A stretch of DNA of 24,202 nt from a virus, in the IMG/VR virus record IMGVR_UViG_3300031963_000908, positions 1 to 24,202 of that record; one strand, 5' to 3'. The notes below the pieces were generated by a model. It made no database searches and was not told the origin of the DNA. It saw only the letters and a program-made list of their open reading frames with translations. Of this stretch, positions 6,855 through 24,202 are shown one piece after another (within the stretch, counting starts at the first letter, position 1; each line of letters opens with the position of its first letter). The translations under genes and the position numbers were made by a program.

Positions 6855-9002
6855 ATGGCCGACTACCCGCCTATCAACAAGTTTTACACCGCTTCCTATG
6901 CGGCTAATGATCGTGACTTTCCAATAGTTGCGATTCGCCTAGATCCCAGAACCGCTGGATACAGGGTTCCAGAAGATCTTAGCCCACACCCCGATAGCAA
7001 ACGCTATCCCAACCATGTCTTTACAGGTTCGCAACCAACTAGTGGAGACCAAGTTGTCACTCATGTCTACGAAATTCTCCCGTCTCCTTGGGTTCCGTTT
7101 ACTCGCTATGATGATGATCTAGGCCCGATTCAAGGCAGACGCCGCTCTGTAAAAAACGAAGGACAGGTAGCCAGCCTTGCCGCTGACAAACGTGTTACCT
7201 ACGAAGCCCGCGAGGGTTCAGCCATTGTCTATACCGAGATTGAGGAATCTTGGTCGATCAAGACTGACGATGATGGTAATTCTCTGTTTCCGATTCGGGA
7301 TCGGGATTTTTACGATGCTTCTCGCGGAGCCGTCCAAGAACGCCGTCAATTGTTTGTTCCAACTGGCGAAGAGGTTGGAAGCCTTGAGAATGTTGATGGG
7401 GTTATAACCCAAACTTCTTACGAACCATACAACGAATTTCTTTTATTTAAGATTGTTCAGACATATTCCGTAGATGGGCCGCAACTTATTGGTAATGTAA
7501 CAAACGAACAAGGACAGCTTGTCACGGTCACAACGCAACGCAAAGCGGCCTTGGACTACATCGCGCCAAACCCAACGGCAACAAGAACGGTTGAGGCTTC
7601 TCGCGAAGACGCAGAATCGCTTGTTGAGCGCATTGTAGACTCGCCCAGTGTTTTTGAGGGCAAATCACTAAGCCTTGAGAAACCAGATGTTACTCCCCAA
7701 AAGTTTAGGGCCAATGTTCCGTCCACCGTTGTTGAGCGATCCGTTGCTGGAAATGTTGGAAGCTCAATTACTTTGGCGGGAAGCGAAATTTCCAAATCAG
7801 AACAACAAGTAACAGAGTTTGTCAAAAGGGTAAGAACTGAAGAACGCGATCCAGCGGCTGAAGGTGTTGTCCAAGGAGAAGCCTATACCACAGAACTGGG
7901 CGGTGGCATTGCCCAAGTCACAGAACGCTATGGCGCTTCTGTAAATATATCTCCAGCTTATGGAACGGTGACAGCCGAAAAAGAGGCGTTGGGTGACGGA
8001 AAGTTTGTTACCAGAGAGGTTGAGCTATCTTCGCCGCCAGAGCTTACTGGACAAAGCTATGATGAAGAACTGGATATTGTATTCCCGTTCACGCAGCAAT
8101 TTGTAGAACCAAATACTGGAGTAGGAGATCCGAGGACAGAGATCCAGCCAAGAGATGTATTCCATTCCATAAAAAGGAATTTTGATATTTCAGAATTTCG
8201 GGATGCGGCACTGAATCAAGAATGGCAAATTGCGGATTTTGTAAACGTCAATCTTCCAGATCGGCTTGTATCAGTTGATATAATCAAAACATACAGCAAA
8301 TCTACTGGCGCTGGACAGGGCGTTGGAAACGACTTCAATGCTTCGGCACAAGCTTCTGCAAGCCTTACATATTCCGTAAGGCCAAATATTATCAACGGGT
8401 ATACAGGAACGGTTCCCGCAACACGTTATGTTTTCTTTTTGGACAGGAATAATTCCACGATGGCCCAAATCATGGCCAAAACTGGAGCGTCACTATGGCC
8501 ATCAATCAAGCCAGAACCAGTAACAATCACGCTTAATGGGGCCAACATATCTCATAGACAACAAAGATCACAGACATCGTCATCAAGTGGAAGCGGGCTT
8601 TCTTCTTCTGGAAGCTATGATACATCTCTTCAAACCTCCATCATCAATATTCCGCCTACACTCCACGCAAGCCTTACGTTCAACAGGATATTTGGAACTG
8701 GCTCGCCAACCAATGAAAATTGGTACACTTATAGCCTTATAAGATTTGGAAACGCTCCATCACTTGGATACAACACATTGCCCAGCGGTGTAATGATTCC
8801 CGTTGAACCTCCGTTCAACGTCAGTGCGTTTGCCGACATCACAAGCAACGAAATAGATTTTTATCCAAAGACGGCTAATGCAACAAATTATCCACAGTTT
8901 CCAACTGGCAACTTCATTGTCAGCATAGATTCACAATCTTATAAATATGGATTGGTAAGAATCACGGCTGTTATTGCACACATAACCAGCGAATACGTCT
9001 AA
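6855..9002 (+). CDS. Large hypothetical, probable virion protein
   Basis: This encodes 715 residues starting MADYPPINKFYTASYAANDR. It has no signal peptide, membrane helix or catalytic motif. The composition is acidic and beta-rich, with many Ser/Thr/Gln/Val stretches. A repeated style of 'TRTVEASREDAESLVERIVD' and 'VTEFVKRVRTEERDP' occurs in the middle (about 245-330), and a Ser/Gly-rich linker (SSSSGSGLSSSGSYD) at about 575-590. The last 120 residues look like a compact beta domain ending 'YGLVRITAVIAHITSEYV'. This is typical of a phage structural or fibre-associated protein. It opens the only plus-strand block in the window and is followed after eight bases by the 79-residue gene. No Shine-Dalgarno site is obvious. 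The family is not recognised. Confidence 0.75.
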   Translation: MADYPPINKFYTASYAANDRDFPIVAIRLDPRTAGYRVPEDLSPHPDSKRYPNHVFTGSQPTSGDQVVTHVYEILPSPWVPFTRYDDDLGPIQGRRRSVKNEGQVASLAADKRVTYEAREGSAIVYTEIEESWSIKTDDDGNSLFPIRDRDFYDASRGAVQERRQLFVPTGEEVGSLENVDGVITQTSYEPYNEFLLFKIVQTYSVDGPQLIGNVTNEQGQLVTVTTQRKAALDYIAPNPTATRTVEASREDAESLVERIVDSPSVFEGKSLSLEKPDVTPQKFRANVPSTVVERSVAGNVGSSITLAGSEISKSEQQVTEFVKRVRTEERDPAAEGVVQGEAYTTELGGGIAQVTERYGASVNISPAYGTVTAEKEALGDGKFVTREVELSSPPELTGQSYDEELDIVFPFTQQFVEPNTGVGDPRTEIQPRDVFHSIKRNFDISEFRDAALNQEWQIADFVNVNLPDRLVSVDIIKTYSKSTGAGQGVGNDFNASAQASASLTYSVRPNIINGYTGTVPATRYVFFLDRNNSTMAQIMAKTGASLWPSIKPEPVTITLNGANISHRQQRSQTSSSSGSGLSSSGSYDTSLQTSIINIPPTLHASLTFNRIFGTGSPTNENWYTYSLIRFGNAPSLGYNTLPSGVMIPVEPPFNVSAFADITSNEIDFYPKTANATNYPQFPTGNFIVSIDSQSYKYGLVRITAVIAHITSEYV

Positions 9003-9010
9003 ATGATATA

Positions 9011-9250
9011 ATGGATGGGTTGCCACAATATAAAGCTAGTCCAGCATTTGTTGGCCTTGGAACAAAAGACCCTCAAGCGTTTATTCGGGGAAACAGTCCA
9101 TATGCTCCGAGCGGGCCACAAGGATCTAGGCTTGTTTTTTCAGAGAAGCTATTTGACCTGACATCAAGGCAAATGGATCAGACAACAAATTACATCTCGG
9201 CACTTAATATTTCAATAGGATCTGGATCGGCACTAGGAACAATACCATGA
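9011..9250 (+). CDS. Small hypothetical protein of the plus-strand block
   Basis: This encodes 79 residues (MDGLPQYKASPAFVGLGTKD) with many Gly, Ser and Gln residues and no membrane segment. The middle part carries 'RGNSPYAPSGPQGSRLVFSE', and the C-terminus is polar. The ATG at 9011 is chosen because the earlier ATG at 9003-9005 meets a stop after two codons. Its stop overlaps the glycosyltransferase start in an ATGA arrangement. It may be a minor virion protein that accompanies the 715-residue protein, which is inference from position only. Confidence 0.65.
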   Translation: MDGLPQYKASPAFVGLGTKDPQAFIRGNSPYAPSGPQGSRLVFSEKLFDLTSRQMDQTTNYISALNISIGSGSALGTIP

Positions 9251-10083
9251 AACTTGTATACACCGCAATTTTTGAAGACGTTGGATCTTATATTCCAAAC
9301 AGCTTTTTCTGTAATAAATTTTTCGACAGAGCCTGTCTGCTGCTGTCGGTCACTCTGTCTAAACAATATTTTAACAATATTGAAATAAGAACAACTCCAG
9401 ATATGGGGGAGTTTTTGTCTGAACTGTTTAGCGATGTGTCTATAGTTCACCAGAATTGTCAACAGTTCGGAGATTACAACTGGCAAATGAATAAGATAAT
9501 GTCTTATTCACAACAATCCGAACCGTTTCTGCACATTGACCATGATGTTTTTATTTACAAAAATCCAAATTTAGAACTCTGGAACTCTGGCTTTTTAACA
9601 CAAAACTTGGAATCGTCATCAGACAAACAGGATCATATTAGGTCTGTTTACTTTATGGCCAAAAATAATGGCCACATTTTTCCAGAATATGCCGAAGAAA
9701 GGGCAACCCAAAAACTGTGGACACAACACAATATGGGTCTTTTTGGATGTTTTGATTTGGAAAAATGCCACCAATATTGTCAGGATATTTTTGGCTGTGC
9801 TGGCAACGGAAGGCCGTTCAGTGGACAAGCTATAATATATGAGCAGTTTTGCTTTACTGCATTTGCCAATAAAAACGAAATACCAGTAATGACATTTTTG
9901 GACAACAACAGCATTGAAGACGATGCCGAACGCAAGGGGTATTGTCACCTAATGGGCGGCAAATCAAGAGTGGATACAATGAGCAGGACAATTGACTCTC
10001 TTGGTCGCCACAACCCAGAGGCTTTATACAAACTTTACAAAACTTTCGATACCAAAACTGGCGATCTTAAAGTTTCGGCCTGA
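9247..10083 (+). CDS. Glycosyltransferase, DUF6734-like
   Basis: This encodes a 278-residue protein with a GT-A-like core. A first strand (MKLVYTAIFEDVG) is followed by 'MNKIMSYSQQSEPFLHIDHD' with a D98-H99-D100 metal-binding motif, then 'TQHNMGLFGC' and 'YEQFCFTAFA', and 'KGYCHLMGGKSR' near the C-terminus. This set matches, in my recollection, the DUF6734 group of uncharacterised glycosyltransferases. There is no membrane helix or signal peptide, so it should be cytoplasmic. A plausible AGGA ribosome-binding site lies nine bases before the ATG. The gene is visibly more AT-rich than the head genes, which suggests separate acquisition. The end overlaps the convergent helix-turn-helix gene by 17 bases. 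Confidence 0.78.
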   Translation: MKLVYTAIFEDVGSYIPNSFFCNKFFDRACLLLSVTLSKQYFNNIEIRTTPDMGEFLSELFSDVSIVHQNCQQFGDYNWQMNKIMSYSQQSEPFLHIDHDVFIYKNPNLELWNSGFLTQNLESSSDKQDHIRSVYFMAKNNGHIFPEYAEERATQKLWTQHNMGLFGCFDLEKCHQYCQDIFGCAGNGRPFSGQAIIYEQFCFTAFANKNEIPVMTFLDNNSIEDDAERKGYCHLMGGKSRVDTMSRTIDSLGRHNPEALYKLYKTFDTKTGDLKVSA

Positions 10084-18037: not shown

Positions 18038-20308
18038 TTACGCTGTTGCTGCAAGCGGTGGTCGGCCTGCGGGTCTTGCCGTCTTCTCTAAAATAGAACT
18101 GCGTGTCTTTAGATCATTGAGTGCCATTTGCTGACGGATGGTTTCCATCTTTTGCTGATGGGTTTCTTGGTTCATCATCCGCTTTTCTTGCATTTCTGCA
18201 AGCTTCAATTGGGCCTTCTGGAGTTCCATTTCGGTGCGTGGATCAATCTGTCCCTGCGGAGCTTGCATTGCAGCCTCTTGTGCTTGGCTCTGCTGTGCCA
18301 TCATGCGGTTGATCACCTGTTGCTCTAGCTCGTCAATGTAGGCAGTGAGGTTTTGGAGTTGGCGACGAAGCTCTCGGACTTCCTGCGCCCTAAAGCTATT
18401 GTTGGAGAATAGAACAAGGTGTTCGGTCACATGGTCTGCGGCAGGACGAAGGATCTGCATCGCCTGCTCATCGGTCATTTGCTGCTGGCGATGGGCTTCA
18501 ATGATCTCGGCAATCATCGGGATATGGGCCTCAATGTGAACCGCGTGGTTCTGGCTATCGTGAACCATCTGCTGAATACCCTGACGGAGGTTGCCGTTCT
18601 CAAGGTTGGCGATGTCAAAATCAACCACACGGCGCGGGCCTTTGTCGGAAACGAAGAGGTTAACCTTCTGCCAACCCACACCAGAGATTCCCGCAATGAC
18701 GGAGCGTAGAGTATTTTCCTTACCCTTCTCGTCCATCAAGGAATAGAGTTCCATGAGTTGCTTACTTGCCATCTCGGTCATTACGGGACTTCCATCGCCC
18801 ATGGCGCGGAAAGCCGTGACTTTAAGAAACTGGCGCATACGCTCAATAGAAACTCCTCGACGCGCACAACGGCGGCGGAACTCAAGGGCGAGTTGCCCAC
18901 CCCTATCATTAGCGGTAAGGAGGGGATTGACGGCTCTGCGGTATTGTTCGGTCAGAAGCTTGTTATACGGAGTGTAGAAAAGTTCCAGTGCTGCGGCGTT
19001 GAGGGTGGATTCTTGGCGAGCCTGCTGAACAACTTCTGTGGCAGAGCGGGCCTGTCCATCTGGAGTGGCCTGACGCGAGCGATAGCTTCCAGTGTTGTTC
19101 TGTAATACTTGGCTCATAAGATTGTAAACAGGAAGACCCTGAGTAGCAATCGAAGGAGGCTGAAGTTGGATCGGGGTCAATCCGCTGGGGATGAATGTAT
19201 AAGGCCCGACCTCAATGTATTGAAAGTCTTGGATGGCCTCGGCGTCACCCTGTAATTGAATAAGTCCTGCCGTGATGGCGGCTTGGGCCGACTGACAAAG
19301 AACCCTGTTAGAAATCTGGATCTGATTGTAGATCTTTTGCTTGAGTCCGCGAATCGTGTGGAATGTTCCCTGTCCCACTCCGTAGGTGAAGATGACAAAG
19401 CACTGGTTCACATTTCCATAGCGGGAATAACGCTCGTAGAGGAAGTCCGAAGAATCACGGGAACCAATAAGCTGGGTAAATTTGCCGTCGAATTCACGGT
19501 TGTAGCCATAGATTAGCTGTGCGCGGTGGTAGGCAGATTCCCCAGCATAGAGGTCATTCTCTTTAATCTCGCGTTCAAAATCTTCCCAGTGGGCGGTGTA
19601 GTTCTTCCACTGATCCCGCTTGGTCGAGGCTTTCCAAATGGCCTGCTTGACCGCATTGAGATTCCAGCCAAGTTCTTTCGCGGCTTTAGGATTGCGGATG
19701 TATCGATAAAGCTCGCTTACGCTCATGGAGCGTTGGACGATAGCTACTTCAATAGATTCATCTGATACCTTGGTATCGCGAGCTACCTTAAAATCCTTGA
19801 GTCCGCAAGGTTCCCAGAAGATGGAGCGTTCGTCAGGCCACATGGCAACCCCAACCCCGTCACCCACAAACTCACGGGAAAGAAGTTGCATATTATAGGC
19901 ATGGTCGCTCCATTCTTTGAGCATCCAGTCAAATTCTTCAGAGATGATCTCGGAGTCTTCATTGGAGTCTCCTTGATAGGAGTCCATGACTACGTTGGCA
20001 ATGCGCGGCACCCCGTTTTGGAGTTCGATATACGGGGCCAAGGCGGCTTCCATGATGGCATTGGCTTCCCCGAAGTTGGCATTGACCACATGGGTCAGTC
20101 CCTTGGACTTCAGTTCTTCTGCATCGTAGGGGGCCTCGCCGTTGACCAAGGCTTGCGCCCGCGCCCGAAGATACGCCGCATCCTCATCTTGTTCGATATA
20201 CTTGTTAGCGATTGCAACAAGGCTATCGGATGATTTGATGCGTTTTTTCGGTGGAGATCCTACCTCAGTCAGGTTTTCCAGTTGCGCGTTTCCGTCTTGA
20301 TTAGCCAT
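18038..20308 (-). CDS. Portal protein
   Basis: This encodes 756 residues that should form the dodecameric head vertex for DNA packaging. The length fits podovirus portals of the P22 or T7 size class. The N-terminus (MANQDGNAQLENLTEVGSPP) is followed by a helical segment, then the wing/stem-like central part with 'LLSREFVGDGVGVAMWPDER' (about 142-161) and 'FVIFTYGVGQGTFHTIRGLK'. 'RSRQATPDGQARSATEVVQQ' (about 405-424) is the portal-like 'ATEV' segment. The last 130 residues form a long Gln-rich coiled coil (QQSQAQEAAMQAPQGQ). No Shine-Dalgarno site is visible, and the leader is AT-rich (CTTATTATTA). A weak TTGACT/TAACCT pair lies upstream. Confidence 0.9.
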   Translation of the reverse strand: MANQDGNAQLENLTEVGSPPKKRIKSSDSLVAIANKYIEQDEDAAYLRARAQALVNGEAPYDAEELKSKGLTHVVNANFGEANAIMEAALAPYIELQNGVPRIANVVMDSYQGDSNEDSEIISEEFDWMLKEWSDHAYNMQLLSREFVGDGVGVAMWPDERSIFWEPCGLKDFKVARDTKVSDESIEVAIVQRSMSVSELYRYIRNPKAAKELGWNLNAVKQAIWKASTKRDQWKNYTAHWEDFEREIKENDLYAGESAYHRAQLIYGYNREFDGKFTQLIGSRDSSDFLYERYSRYGNVNQCFVIFTYGVGQGTFHTIRGLKQKIYNQIQISNRVLCQSAQAAITAGLIQLQGDAEAIQDFQYIEVGPYTFIPSGLTPIQLQPPSIATQGLPVYNLMSQVLQNNTGSYRSRQATPDGQARSATEVVQQARQESTLNAAALELFYTPYNKLLTEQYRRAVNPLLTANDRGGQLALEFRRRCARRGVSIERMRQFLKVTAFRAMGDGSPVMTEMASKQLMELYSLMDEKGKENTLRSVIAGISGVGWQKVNLFVSDKGPRRVVDFDIANLENGNLRQGIQQMVHDSQNHAVHIEAHIPMIAEIIEAHRQQQMTDEQAMQILRPAADHVTEHLVLFSNNSFRAQEVRELRRQLQNLTAYIDELEQQVINRMMAQQSQAQEAAMQAPQGQIDPRTEMELQKAQLKLAEMQEKRMMNQETHQQKMETIRQQMALNDLKTRSSILEKTARPAGRPPLAATA

Positions 20309-20351: not shown

Positions 20352-21968
20352 CTATTGCGTCCATCCCGTAATAATCCCATTGCTTATGGTAACGGTATTA
20401 GTGGTGTAATTGGTTCCATTATAAGAAACAAAAACACGGTTAGTTGACAGACCGCCGCCAAGTCCCATTTCTTCGCGACTGTAAATTTGTTTCCACCTAT
20501 TAGTGAATGTTGTAGATGCTGGGTTTACCAATACCCACGTTTTTGATTGTTGGGGAGGAATCGTTGTAATAGTGCTTCCTTGAAATCTTAAAAAATTAAT
20601 GTTGTTAGAAGTGCTGTTGTTACGAATTGTAAATTGGTATCCATTTGGAAATATTGTTTGATTTCCTTGTTCCATTAATGATGTGTTTAAAACATTTCTA
20701 TTTGTTTCTAGCGGATTAATTTCATAATAGGCATTCCTATTGGTATTCAACAACGGATAATTGTTGGAAATAGAAACATTGGTCACGAGTGGCAATGATG
20801 CACCATCAACCACATTGCTAATATTCATTTCTTGAGAAGAAACCGATGGTATAAATTGCAATTCGTAAATATTTGTTTTTCCATCTATTGCAATAATTTT
20901 TCCGTCAATTTCTGCCATTCCTTGCAATCTATCGGTTGCTCCAAATTTTCCCGTGTAATAAGTGGTTTTATTTGAATTGTTTAAATTATATTGATAAATT
21001 TCACCATCTCCAAAAAAATACACATTGCCATTTGTGCTATAAACTCCGCTATACGAAAAATTACCCATATTTATAAAATCATGGTTAGTTAAATTATAAG
21101 CCCCACTAGGATTGCCAGAAACAAATGCGTAATTTTCATTTACACCAATAACATTATAAATCAAATTGGTTGTTGAGGTTCTGGTTGCTGAAAAGTTTGA
21201 AAGTGCAATTGTCCAAAAAACAGAATTAGATCCACTTAGTCCCGTCATTGCTCCCGCCAAAATTGTTCCAGCGGGATTGGTTTCCATGCGATAGATTGCA
21301 GCCGTATTAGCATTTGTGGGCGCTACGGTAACAACATCTACTTGTACATCATTGGTTAAATTGATTTTACTAATAGCCTCTGATGAAGGGGCACCACCTT
21401 TAGAGACATACATAAATGCACCAACTATCAAAGCTGGTCTATGCTGGGCTCCAGCATTTGTTGAAATAATACTTACAGAATAATTGGTCGGATTAATTCC
21501 AATAACTCGGTCATTCCTGCCACTAGCATACATGACATTGCGTTCAGAATTATATCTATAACCTCCATGTGCGGCATTGGCGTTTGTTATTATTAAATTT
21601 GTCTGCTGCGAAAGATTAAAAACATTGCTAAAGACAGCTAAAGAAACGGAATTATTAGTTGTTGGATCGGAATTTGCCAACCAAAGCCTGCCTTGTGGTG
21701 TCACTCCAGCATAAGTGTCTGGTATTGGAGTCCAACTGGTTTGCTGTGGATAAGTAACATCGTGACGGCGGGTAACAAATTGAAGAAATCCATTGGTTTG
21801 TCCAAAAGCATTGGTTCCAATAAACTCCTGAACATTTGTGGAAATTGGAGCCTGTTGCCAAAAATTTGTTGGAAAAACAACTCCACCATTTGTGTTAACC
21901 ATGACAGTTTGCTTCTGTCCGTAAGACGCCGAAACTAAAGCAAGTAAAATAATTAGAAAATATTTCAT
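20352..21968 (-). CDS. Secreted-type Asn/Thr-rich protein, possible fibre or adhesin
   Basis: This encodes 538 residues beginning with a clear signal peptide (MKYFLIILLALVSASYGQ, cleavage likely after about residue 16-18), which is unusual for a virion protein. The mature part is extremely rich in Asn and Thr, with about two dozen 'TN' pairs. It also has repeated beta-type units such as 'GRLWLANSDPTTNNSVSLAV' and 'IYQYNLNNSNKTTYYTGKFG', suggesting a beta-propeller or beta-solenoid. The gene is much more AT-rich than the neighbouring portal gene, a sign of recent acquisition. It overlaps the upstream short fibre-repeat gene in an ATGA arrangement. It could be a host-derived adhesin, a fibre tip or a secreted factor. 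Asn/Thr-rich secreted proteins are, in my experience, frequent in Verrucomicrobiota, which is only a hint. Confidence 0.72.
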   Translation of the reverse strand: MKYFLIILLALVSASYGQKQTVMVNTNGGVVFPTNFWQQAPISTNVQEFIGTNAFGQTNGFLQFVTRRHDVTYPQQTSWTPIPDTYAGVTPQGRLWLANSDPTTNNSVSLAVFSNVFNLSQQTNLIITNANAAHGGYRYNSERNVMYASGRNDRVIGINPTNYSVSIISTNAGAQHRPALIVGAFMYVSKGGAPSSEAISKINLTNDVQVDVVTVAPTNANTAAIYRMETNPAGTILAGAMTGLSGSNSVFWTIALSNFSATRTSTTNLIYNVIGVNENYAFVSGNPSGAYNLTNHDFINMGNFSYSGVYSTNGNVYFFGDGEIYQYNLNNSNKTTYYTGKFGATDRLQGMAEIDGKIIAIDGKTNIYELQFIPSVSSQEMNISNVVDGASLPLVTNVSISNNYPLLNTNRNAYYEINPLETNRNVLNTSLMEQGNQTIFPNGYQFTIRNNSTSNNINFLRFQGSTITTIPPQQSKTWVLVNPASTTFTNRWKQIYSREEMGLGGGLSTNRVFVSYNGTNYTTNTVTISNGIITGWTQ

Positions 21969-22195
21969 GGCACAATTTCCTCTATAAGTTGTCCTTCAGT
22001 TCCAGCCCTGTATCTGTGACGGACTCCATTAGAATCCCGAAAAATAATACCCTTGGAAGCATCGGTAATCTCTATATCTGAACCCCCAACCTTCTGTGCC
22101 GCCCCAACAATACGGCTATCATTACCTTCCGCATAGGTTCCTGCGGTGGTTCCTGCCACTACGGGCTGGGGGTAATATGCGGAGAGTAAGGCCAT
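21965..22195 (-). CDS. Short tail-fibre-repeat protein
   Basis: This encodes 76 residues. The segment 'AGTTAGTYAEGNDSRIVGAA' is a well-known short repeat of phage tail-fibre proteins. The remainder is a compact beta-type end with 'GGSDIEITDASKGIIFRDSN' and 'GVRHRYRAGTEGQLIEEIVP'. It may be the C-terminal part of a former longer fibre, or a small fibre-accessory protein. Its stop overlaps the start of the signal-peptide-bearing gene. It lies 55 bases after the gene ending at 22251. Confidence 0.72.
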   Translation of the reverse strand: MALLSAYYPQPVVAGTTAGTYAEGNDSRIVGAAQKVGGSDIEITDASKGIIFRDSNGVRHRYRAGTEGQLIEEIVP

Positions 22196-22697: not shown

Positions 22698-23358
22698 AAA
22701 CGCGGGGATGGTTGGCGACTGTCGCGCTGTTGTTGTTGGCGATGGTCAAGCCGCCGCGCACATCTTGGAGGTCGCGGATTAAGGGCGCGTAGAAGACAAG
22801 AGACTGCGGACGCACCTTGTCGCAGGTCATGCCAGCCGAAAGTGACTTAATCTCATCGGCGGTGAGGGCGGCTGACCAGACCCCGACTTCGGCCAATAAT
22901 CCAGACCAAGTCGCTGCCGCTGATGTGTTATTCGTAAGGTTTGCGCCTATATGGATGTTGGCAACAGTGGGAGGCGAGTATGATGTGGTATTTGAAGCAG
23001 ACGTTGAGTGATTCAAATATACTGTTCTTGAGGTAGTGGATTCAAATACTCCAGCGCCATGATTCCACACTTGATTGCTTACCGTTCCCGAGGCTGTCTC
23101 GGCTTGAACGGAAGTTGTTGCTCCGCCAAATCCGCCTCCGCTTAATGAAATGGCCCGCAAAACTTGAGCGCCTGAGGGTATAACAAGACGATACACTTCT
23201 CCGCCAGCCAGAGCCGTGTTTCCTATTTGAGCAATGACTCTTTGCGCTGTTGATACATTAGAATTAAACCATGCAGCGATTGTTAATGGCATACTGGTCA
23301 CAGGCGTGGAAGCTGTGGACAAATACTGACTGCTCGCGGCTGTAAAATTGTAAGCCAT
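22690..23358 (-). CDS. LamG / concanavalin-like adhesin
   Basis: This encodes 222 residues with the layout of a laminin-G-like jelly-roll domain. It begins 'MAYNFTAASSQYLSTASTPV' and continues with 'LTIAAWFNSNVSTAQRVIAQ' and 'SRTVYLNHSTSASNTTSY'. The typical end 'GLLAEVGVWSAALTADEIKS' is present. Such domains bind carbohydrates and are frequent at phage tail-fibre tips. A short C-terminal extension follows ('RPQSLVFYAPLIRDLQDVRG'). The start overlaps the previous gene's stop by one base (TAATG). It probably recognises host-surface glycan. No signal peptide is present. Confidence 0.83.
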   Translation of the reverse strand: MAYNFTAASSQYLSTASTPVTSMPLTIAAWFNSNVSTAQRVIAQIGNTALAGGEVYRLVIPSGAQVLRAISLSGGGFGGATTSVQAETASGTVSNQVWNHGAGVFESTTSRTVYLNHSTSASNTTSYSPPTVANIHIGANLTNNTSAAATWSGLLAEVGVWSAALTADEIKSLSAGMTCDKVRPQSLVFYAPLIRDLQDVRGGLTIANNNSATVANHPRVYA

Positions 23359-24202
23359 TACGCCGCGCTCCTTAACTCAACTGCGACCAACTCAATGTCC
23401 CCACTGGCTGAATCTGCGGCGTCTGCTCCGAGCCGTTGCACCCGCAAACGGAACAAGTCGCCAGCCGTGATGCCGTCGATGGCCGTGCAAGTGATGCTGC
23501 CCACGGCGACCACACCAGAGGTTGAGGCAACCGCAACTGTGGCAGCGGTGGCCGTGTCGAAAGAATCGCTGTCGAGGTCGGTCGTGCAACGCTCAAAGGC
23601 GACACTCCAGCGCACGTTGCCGCTGGTGGCCGTGGTTGCCATGAAGTCGAGATTGACGATCAAGCCGCTGCCGAGTGATGCGCCTTCGGGCATGATGCCG
23701 ACGAAGACAGCAGATTCGGTCGAGGCGTCATCGAAGTCGAGGACGGCGATGCTGTTGCGGGTGTCGAGAGTGGCGAAGCTGGTCGATGGCGGCTGGTTGT
23801 GTTCGGCAGTGAAGACGGCGTAGGTCTTCGTGCCGCCAGATCCTCCTCCAGATGCCGCCGCAAATGTTACCCCGCCCGATCCATTGGCCGTCAGCACATG
23901 GCCGTTGGTCGCGCCTGTGGCGGCGAGGGAGGTTAGTTCGTGGGAATGGTTGCCAGTGGCAACCGTGCCTGCGGTTGTGCCCGTGTTGAGTGTGGCGCTG
24001 TTGCCGAGGGTCGGTTTGTTAAGAATCTGCGCGTCACCGCTCGATGCGTTCCAGTCGGCGTTGACGTTTACTTCCGCGCCCGAAGCAATTCCGTCCAGCT
24101 TGGTCTTGTCCGCCGTGGACATGAAGCCAGCGACAGACTGTGTGGCGTCCGAGTGCGTGTGCGAGCTTGCCGCCGCGCCGACATCGGAGGGTGTGCCGTA
24201 GG
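23358..24202 (-). CDS. Tail-fibre protein (5' end missing)
   Basis: The frame stays open to the right edge, so only the C-terminal 281 codons are present. An internal ATG at 24122 is not the real start. The visible part has the typical fibre pieces 'HTHSDATQSVAGFMSTADKT', 'KLDGIASGAEVNVNADWNAS' and 'GNHSHELTS', common in phage collar or tail fibres. The C-terminus is a beta-rich section with 'GGGSGGTKTYAVFTAEHNQP' and 'VRWSVAFERCTTDLDSDSFD'. It is encoded by GC-rich DNA, in contrast to the AT-rich gene at 20352-21968. It should be the main or shaft part of the fibre, acting with the LamG protein next to it. Confidence 0.85.
   Translation of the reverse strand, partial: YGTPSDVGAAASSHTHSDATQSVAGFMSTADKTKLDGIASGAEVNVNADWNASSGDAQILNKPTLGNSATLNTGTTAGTVATGNHSHELTSLAATGATNGHVLTANGSGGVTFAAASGGGSGGTKTYAVFTAEHNQPPSTSFATLDTRNSIAVLDFDDASTESAVFVGIMPEGASLGSGLIVNLDFMATTATSGNVRWSVAFERCTTDLDSDSFDTATAATVAVASTSGVVAVGSITCTAIDGITAGDLFRLRVQRLGADAADSASGDIELVAVELRSAA

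Follow-up and report, generated by a model that had tools for sequence, protein, structure and literature searches.

A predicted Sec-exported, fibre-family protein encoded among the structural genes of a probable Verrucomicrobiota phage

The 538-residue gene and its signal peptide

We analyzed 24,202 nucleotides of viral DNA (IMG/VR record IMGVR_UViG_3300031963_000908, positions 1 to 24,202; hereafter the window) from a freshwater virus, whose host we infer was probably a member of the Verrucomicrobiota. The open reading frame (ORF) at 20352–21968 on the minus strand was confirmed as a real gene, with an ATG start, AGAGGA upstream and a product of 538 amino acids predicted to be exported. Compared with the 68.5-kb viral contig L002, the window showed 2 mismatches over 11.8 kb. 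The gene and its parts are as follows:

20352–21968 (−), predicted exported phage protein of 538 residues, 100% identical in L002 and 97% identical in a second phage contig, L003
21918–21968 (−), signal peptide, residues 1–17 (MKYFLIILLALVSASYG), with a predicted signal peptidase I (SPase I) cut before Gln18
21858–21917 (−), N-terminal module QKQTVMVNTNGGVVFPTNFW, common to a signal-peptide-bearing fibre family and to short proteins of the same genomic slot
20814–21752 (−), exchangeable all-beta middle, residues 73–385, with a propeller-like period of ~44–45 residues, described from this period and from cassette exchange
20355–20477 (−), C-terminal tail, residues 498–538 (...TNTVTISNGIITGWTQ), common to short signal-peptide-bearing proteins that follow the tailspikes of relatives

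The N-terminus has the n-, h- and c-regions of a Sec/SPase I substrate: MKYFLIILLALVSASYG contains Lys2, a hydrophobic core ~12 residues long (hydropathy on the Kyte-Doolittle scale up to 3.8 over 8 residues) and small residues at positions −3 and −1 (Ser and Gly), followed by Gln18 as the mature start. Signal peptides were called by rule and not by SignalP. When applied to random N-termini of matching composition, the rule called a signal peptide in 1.2%; among 90 other ORFs of ≥150 residues in related contigs, it called 2. Neither a twin-arginine motif nor a lipobox cysteine was found in the protein, and as it contains zero cysteines it is not a lipoprotein. Relative to the 97%-identical copy in the second phage, the ratio of nonsynonymous to synonymous substitution rates (dN/dS) was 0.127 over the whole gene, indicating purifying selection to keep the protein, and 0.019 for the signal peptide plus module. 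Because the SPase I site is conserved across relatives, the product is probably exported from the cytoplasm.

These results bear out the standard Sec-type signal peptide that a preliminary description of this DNA had pointed out, and two of its further observations were also confirmed. The product is rich in asparagine (12.8%) and threonine (11.0%), and the gene is more AT-rich than its surroundings, its GC content being 36.5% where the window as a whole averages 47.3 ± 3.7%. At third codon positions, GC was 27%, compared with 56% in the adjacent portal-like gene.

Searches of Pfam, PHROGs, the Protein Data Bank (PDB) and 50,697 phage records gave no match for the whole protein, and family and phage-record searches gave no sequence match to fibre or spike families. 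Only four viral contigs were matched in a whole-protein search; in one of these the match was confined to residues 22–50, within a different signal-peptide-bearing protein, and it was this match that led to the signal-peptide-bearing fibre family described below.

Signal-peptide-bearing proteins in related phages and in bacterial genomes

Nearer the terminase gene, L002 encodes a 626-residue protein that combines a signal peptide and the same module (QTRNVLVGTNNTVVQPTNFW) with repeats of tail-fibre type (ARTNLGLG..ALTNTN). When viral contigs were scanned for the module, 163 stretches contained it, of which 80 were kept for analysis. Every analyzed full-length protein with the N-terminal module has a signal peptide, the exceptions being truncated or over-extended ORFs, and no close homologue without one was found. 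Across 36 distinct signal peptides (a set that leaves out one 5'-truncated artefact), position −1 was Gly, Ala or Ser, position −3 was Gly, Ala, Ser or Val, and position +1 was Gln in all 36, with position −2 free. In distant relatives the spacer between signal peptide and module varies and the SPase I site is retained. The signal peptide and PTNFW module were likewise present on the first large ORF after the terminase in 65 of 65 loci, which had been picked by terminase, not by signal peptide or motif, and comprised only loci with enough downstream sequence.

The same fibre, at L002:1076–2956 and in the 65 terminase-linked loci (L194–L269), ranges from 531 to 1658 residues and is arguably a stronger finding than the 538-residue gene. 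Among PHROGs it matches families named "tail fiber protein", with E values as low as 4e-26, and the products of its upstream neighbours, p123 and p122, match "L-shaped tail fiber protein assembly" (phrog_3304). For a domain common to 15 diverse copies, a confident fold was predicted (pLDDT, the predicted local distance difference test score, 82). The best PDB matches of this modelled domain were phage tail and tailspike structures (E 4e-4 and 2e-3); its viral matches below 1e-3 numbered 71, and many of these bore the name tail fibre or minor tail protein. Most relatives encode a conventional fibre without a signal peptide in the same operon. To our knowledge, known tail fibres carry no Sec signal peptides, and our literature searches returned no report of tail fibres bearing them. 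The signal-peptide-bearing proteins of the structural operon are a phage-specific family, and the 538-residue gene is no lone oddity. Since all sampled relatives carry such proteins, export of fibre-like proteins from the infected cell may be a general trait of these viruses. The signal peptide plus V-PTNFW module may also serve as a marker for phages of Verrucomicrobiota, a phylum with few isolated phages.

In a genome collection, the module was found at two loci, both in Verrucomicrobiota metagenome-assembled genomes. One is a Mu-like prophage with a Portal_Mu match (E 2e-69), in which two signal-peptide-bearing proteins are encoded side by side; the other is a short phage-like contig with several in a row. 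In a third Verrucomicrobiota genome, an ORF with a signal peptide plus DSNGVVYHPDNFW and two further ORFs with signal peptides lie on a prophage-like contig. When 388 Verrucomicrobiota genomes were scanned, two contained the module, one in a Mu-like prophage and one in a prophage-like contig; these and the other bacterial genome scans found no cellular copies outside phage-like or prophage contexts. The preliminary description had suggested a host-derived adhesin, an origin that fits poorly with a module seen in 163 viral stretches and, in bacterial genomes, only in such phage contexts. The middle domain was found in 0 of the 388 genomes, a weak negative from a search without a positive control.

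Further Mu-like prophages hold blocks of signal-peptide-bearing proteins between tail-tube-like and tape-measure-like genes, these roles being judged from position and reading rather than from profile matches. One array, at 7567–14008 of L184 (reverse complement), comprises about six consecutive ORFs with signal peptides in a Mu-like prophage of a Verrucomicrobiota genome. The overall rate in 35 Mu-like Verrucomicrobiota portal loci (38 of 302 ORFs; eight Mu-like phages taken as controls had 1 of 102) was not used as evidence, because several of the 38 look, by inspection, like flanking host genes; individual clear arrays in prophages were used. By the strict rule, Akkermansia phage Chantilly yielded no signal-peptide-bearing protein, which shows that not every phage of the phylum shares the habit. 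Nor did we base the host assignment on the "Q-rule" (Gln after the cut), which is described for Bacteroidota (PMC5837995); the name Verrucomicrobia did not turn up when the text of that paper was searched.

The slot before the portal gene and the exchangeable middle domain

The 538-residue gene occupies a hypervariable slot just before the portal-like gene. Its two neighbours are:

18038–20308 (−), portal-like gene directly downstream, its role assigned from operon position, neither Pfam nor PHROGs giving a match above threshold
21965–22195 (−), 76-residue mini-spike with an N-terminus as in pectate-lyase-type tailspikes, sharing 4 nucleotides (ATGA overlap) with the 538-residue gene

Surveyed in relatives sampled by portal, the slot may hold a full tailspike (with pectate-lyase or tail-spike matches) and then a short signal-peptide-bearing protein of 115–277 residues; a mini-spike of 71–83 residues and then a larger signal-peptide-bearing protein of 168–538 residues; or an Mtd_N-type protein and then a protein without a signal peptide. 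The remaining relatives hold other genes. The first ~32 residues of the mini-spike in the window are 90% identical to the N-terminus of the relatives' pectate-lyase-type tailspikes. A signal-peptide-bearing protein directly follows the stub in 9 of 9 recognized mini-spike stubs, and these proteins are longer behind stubs than behind full spikes (p=0.004). The Mtd_N cassette lies at L287:5465–7962 (also in L290, L302, L338 and L341), with a PF18454 match (E 2e-11) followed by a protein of ~444 residues lacking a signal peptide. We also observed a second small signal-peptide-bearing family of 129–152 residues, with Ala or Gly before the cut and QLVPQTQLEQDL after it, in the pre-portal slot at L072:6669–7058, L099:6334–6723, L041:8964–9422 and L021:12193–12594.

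Several of the short proteins behind full tailspikes have the N-terminal module or the C-terminal tail of the 538-residue protein. For the tail, identity was 63% over 41 residues (E 2e-10), and the Smith–Waterman score was 115, where the highest of 2000 shuffles reached 62. As both ends recur in the short proteins, the 538-residue protein can be described as a two-ended scaffold with an insert of ~350 residues. A proposed homology of residues 401–538 to fibre domain A3 was unsupported (hhalign probability 0.2%).

DNA identity between L002 and L003 was 94–100% within the 538-residue gene and 77–89% in its flanks, and the edges of high identity fell within the signal peptide and module and just past the C-terminal tail. 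Synonymous divergence (dS) fell from 0.43 over codons 1–54 to 0.066 in the middle. By this comparison, the middle of ~350 residues is a cassette recently swapped between phages. The preliminary description had seen repeated beta units in the product; no significant sequence repeat was found within the middle (14 of 60 shuffles scored as high), and what did emerge was a beta-propensity period of ~44–45 residues (p about 0.02). From this period, a propeller being built of repeated four-strand blades of ~40–50 residues, the middle is possibly a beta-propeller. A single-sequence AlphaFold model of the protein had a pLDDT of 33 and was not used.

Candidate roles of the exported protein and other genes of the window

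We tentatively propose that the 538-residue protein is a Sec-exported, exchangeable member of the fibre family and the partner in an adhesin module, and that it acts at the envelope, for example by masking the receptor of that module. Action at the envelope appears most likely, and joining of virions outside the cytoplasm less likely. Judging from the shared orientation and overlap with structural genes, the protein would be produced late, along with the structural proteins, pass through Sec and be cut by SPase I after residue 17 to reach the periplasm or cell exterior. The fixed N-terminal module and C-terminal tail would bracket an exchangeable, probably propeller-like, binding domain, which may bind a ligand of the host surface or envelope. 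Masking of this ligand would keep new phages from sticking to the dying cell or debris and would exclude rival phages. An envelope role is favoured because tailed-phage particles form in the cytoplasm, and because exported receptor blockers encoded beside adhesin genes are known.

In T5, llp, which encodes such a blocker, adjoins the adhesin gene oad (PMC9586334, PMC4728585), and Llp prevents phage from adsorbing to infected cells and to fragments (PMC9586334). Like the T5 Llp and Cor superinfection-exclusion lipoproteins, the 538-residue protein is phage-encoded, bears an export signal and has its gene beside an adhesin gene (PMC4728585), here overlapping the mini-spike gene in a slot that holds tailspikes in relatives. 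Unlike them, it lacks a lipobox cysteine, is not small, is encoded in the structural operon and carries a fibre-family N-terminal module, and receptor blocking would be its presumed rather than its established activity. Lambda Lom similarly has a signal peptide and is encoded between the tail spike and tail fibre genes (PMC12309495), but it is an outer-membrane beta-barrel, whereas the 538-residue protein has fixed ends around an exchangeable middle and gave no match to a barrel family in family searches. Other phages keep receptor-blocking or outer-membrane factors in such a location. Together with the genuine signal peptide and the probable departure from the cytoplasm, this location partly supports the preliminary description, which had considered a secreted surface factor; its suggestion of a host-derived adhesin is not supported.

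Several points weigh against an envelope role. Some relatives' slot cassettes have no signal-peptide-bearing partner, and no lipid anchor or beta-barrel signature that could retain the 538-residue protein at the outer membrane was seen. Export is a prediction from sequence, and ligand and phenotype are presumed. The paralogues that share its signal peptide have tail-fibre features, both in PHROG matches (E 4e-26) and in matches to tailspike and fibre folds, which would also fit a virion part, and a mini-spike stub without a binding domain would make sense if completed by the signal-peptide-bearing protein. The preliminary description had held that the product is not a virion part; the tail-fibre-type paralogues with the same signal peptide and module, and the pairing with a mini-spike gene, leave room for a virion part.

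A virion adhesin that leaves through Sec, folds outside the cytoplasm and attaches to the particle at or after lysis, perhaps on the 76-residue mini-spike, is possible though doubtful. It would account for the same signal peptide and module on length-variable (531–1658 residues) tail-fibre-type proteins, for the paralogue's modelled domain, for the upstream phrog_3304 matches and for the mini-spike pairing; yet tailed-phage particles are assembled in the cytoplasm, an ordinary fibre without a signal peptide is encoded in the same operon, and we know of no tailed phage that assembles its fibres by an export route. The protein does resemble tail fibres and tailspikes in being modular and exchangeable, but differs in that a signal peptide is universal in the sampled family; the cytoplasmic N-terminal anchor lacking an export signal, as in tail fibres and tailspikes, was not found, every full-length homologue having a signal peptide. 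That the hydrophobic N-terminus is a retained fibre anchor and no working signal peptide is improbable: the fibre-type paralogues and structural-operon location would suit it, but all 36 distinct sequences retain the SPase I site, with position −1 varying only among Gly, Ala and Ser, the site persists where the spacer to the module varies, and the core has only ~12 residues. Similarly improbable is a host-derived or moron cargo gene, encoding a secreted enzyme or adhesin, at this place by chance. AT-rich DNA, cassette exchange and a middle domain without a family would be expected of such a gene, but both ends are a phage-specific scaffold present too in cargo-free short proteins, and the genome scans detected no cellular copy of the module.

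More broadly, Verrucomicrobiota phages might make part of their adhesin set via host Sec, with signal-peptide-bearing fibres and spike partners exported, processed and joined to the particle outside the cytoplasm. We consider this rather unlikely; if true, Sec-routed adhesin assembly would be a route not known for tailed phages. A fibre-like family that is predicted to be exported, is present in every sampled member of the lineage and is met again in unrelated prophages of Verrucomicrobiota suggests one of two things: the surface of the infected cell is systematically remodelled, or some parts of tailed phages are put together outside the cytoplasm.

Other genes observed in the window are:

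23358–24200 (−), C-terminal part of a 1096-residue tail fibre without a signal peptide, complete in L002
22690–23358 (−), LamG/concanavalin-like protein (PF13385, E 2e-16), between this fibre and the mini-spike
9247–10083 (+), DUF6734 protein (PF20508, E 4e-29), encoded on the other strand within AT-rich DNA
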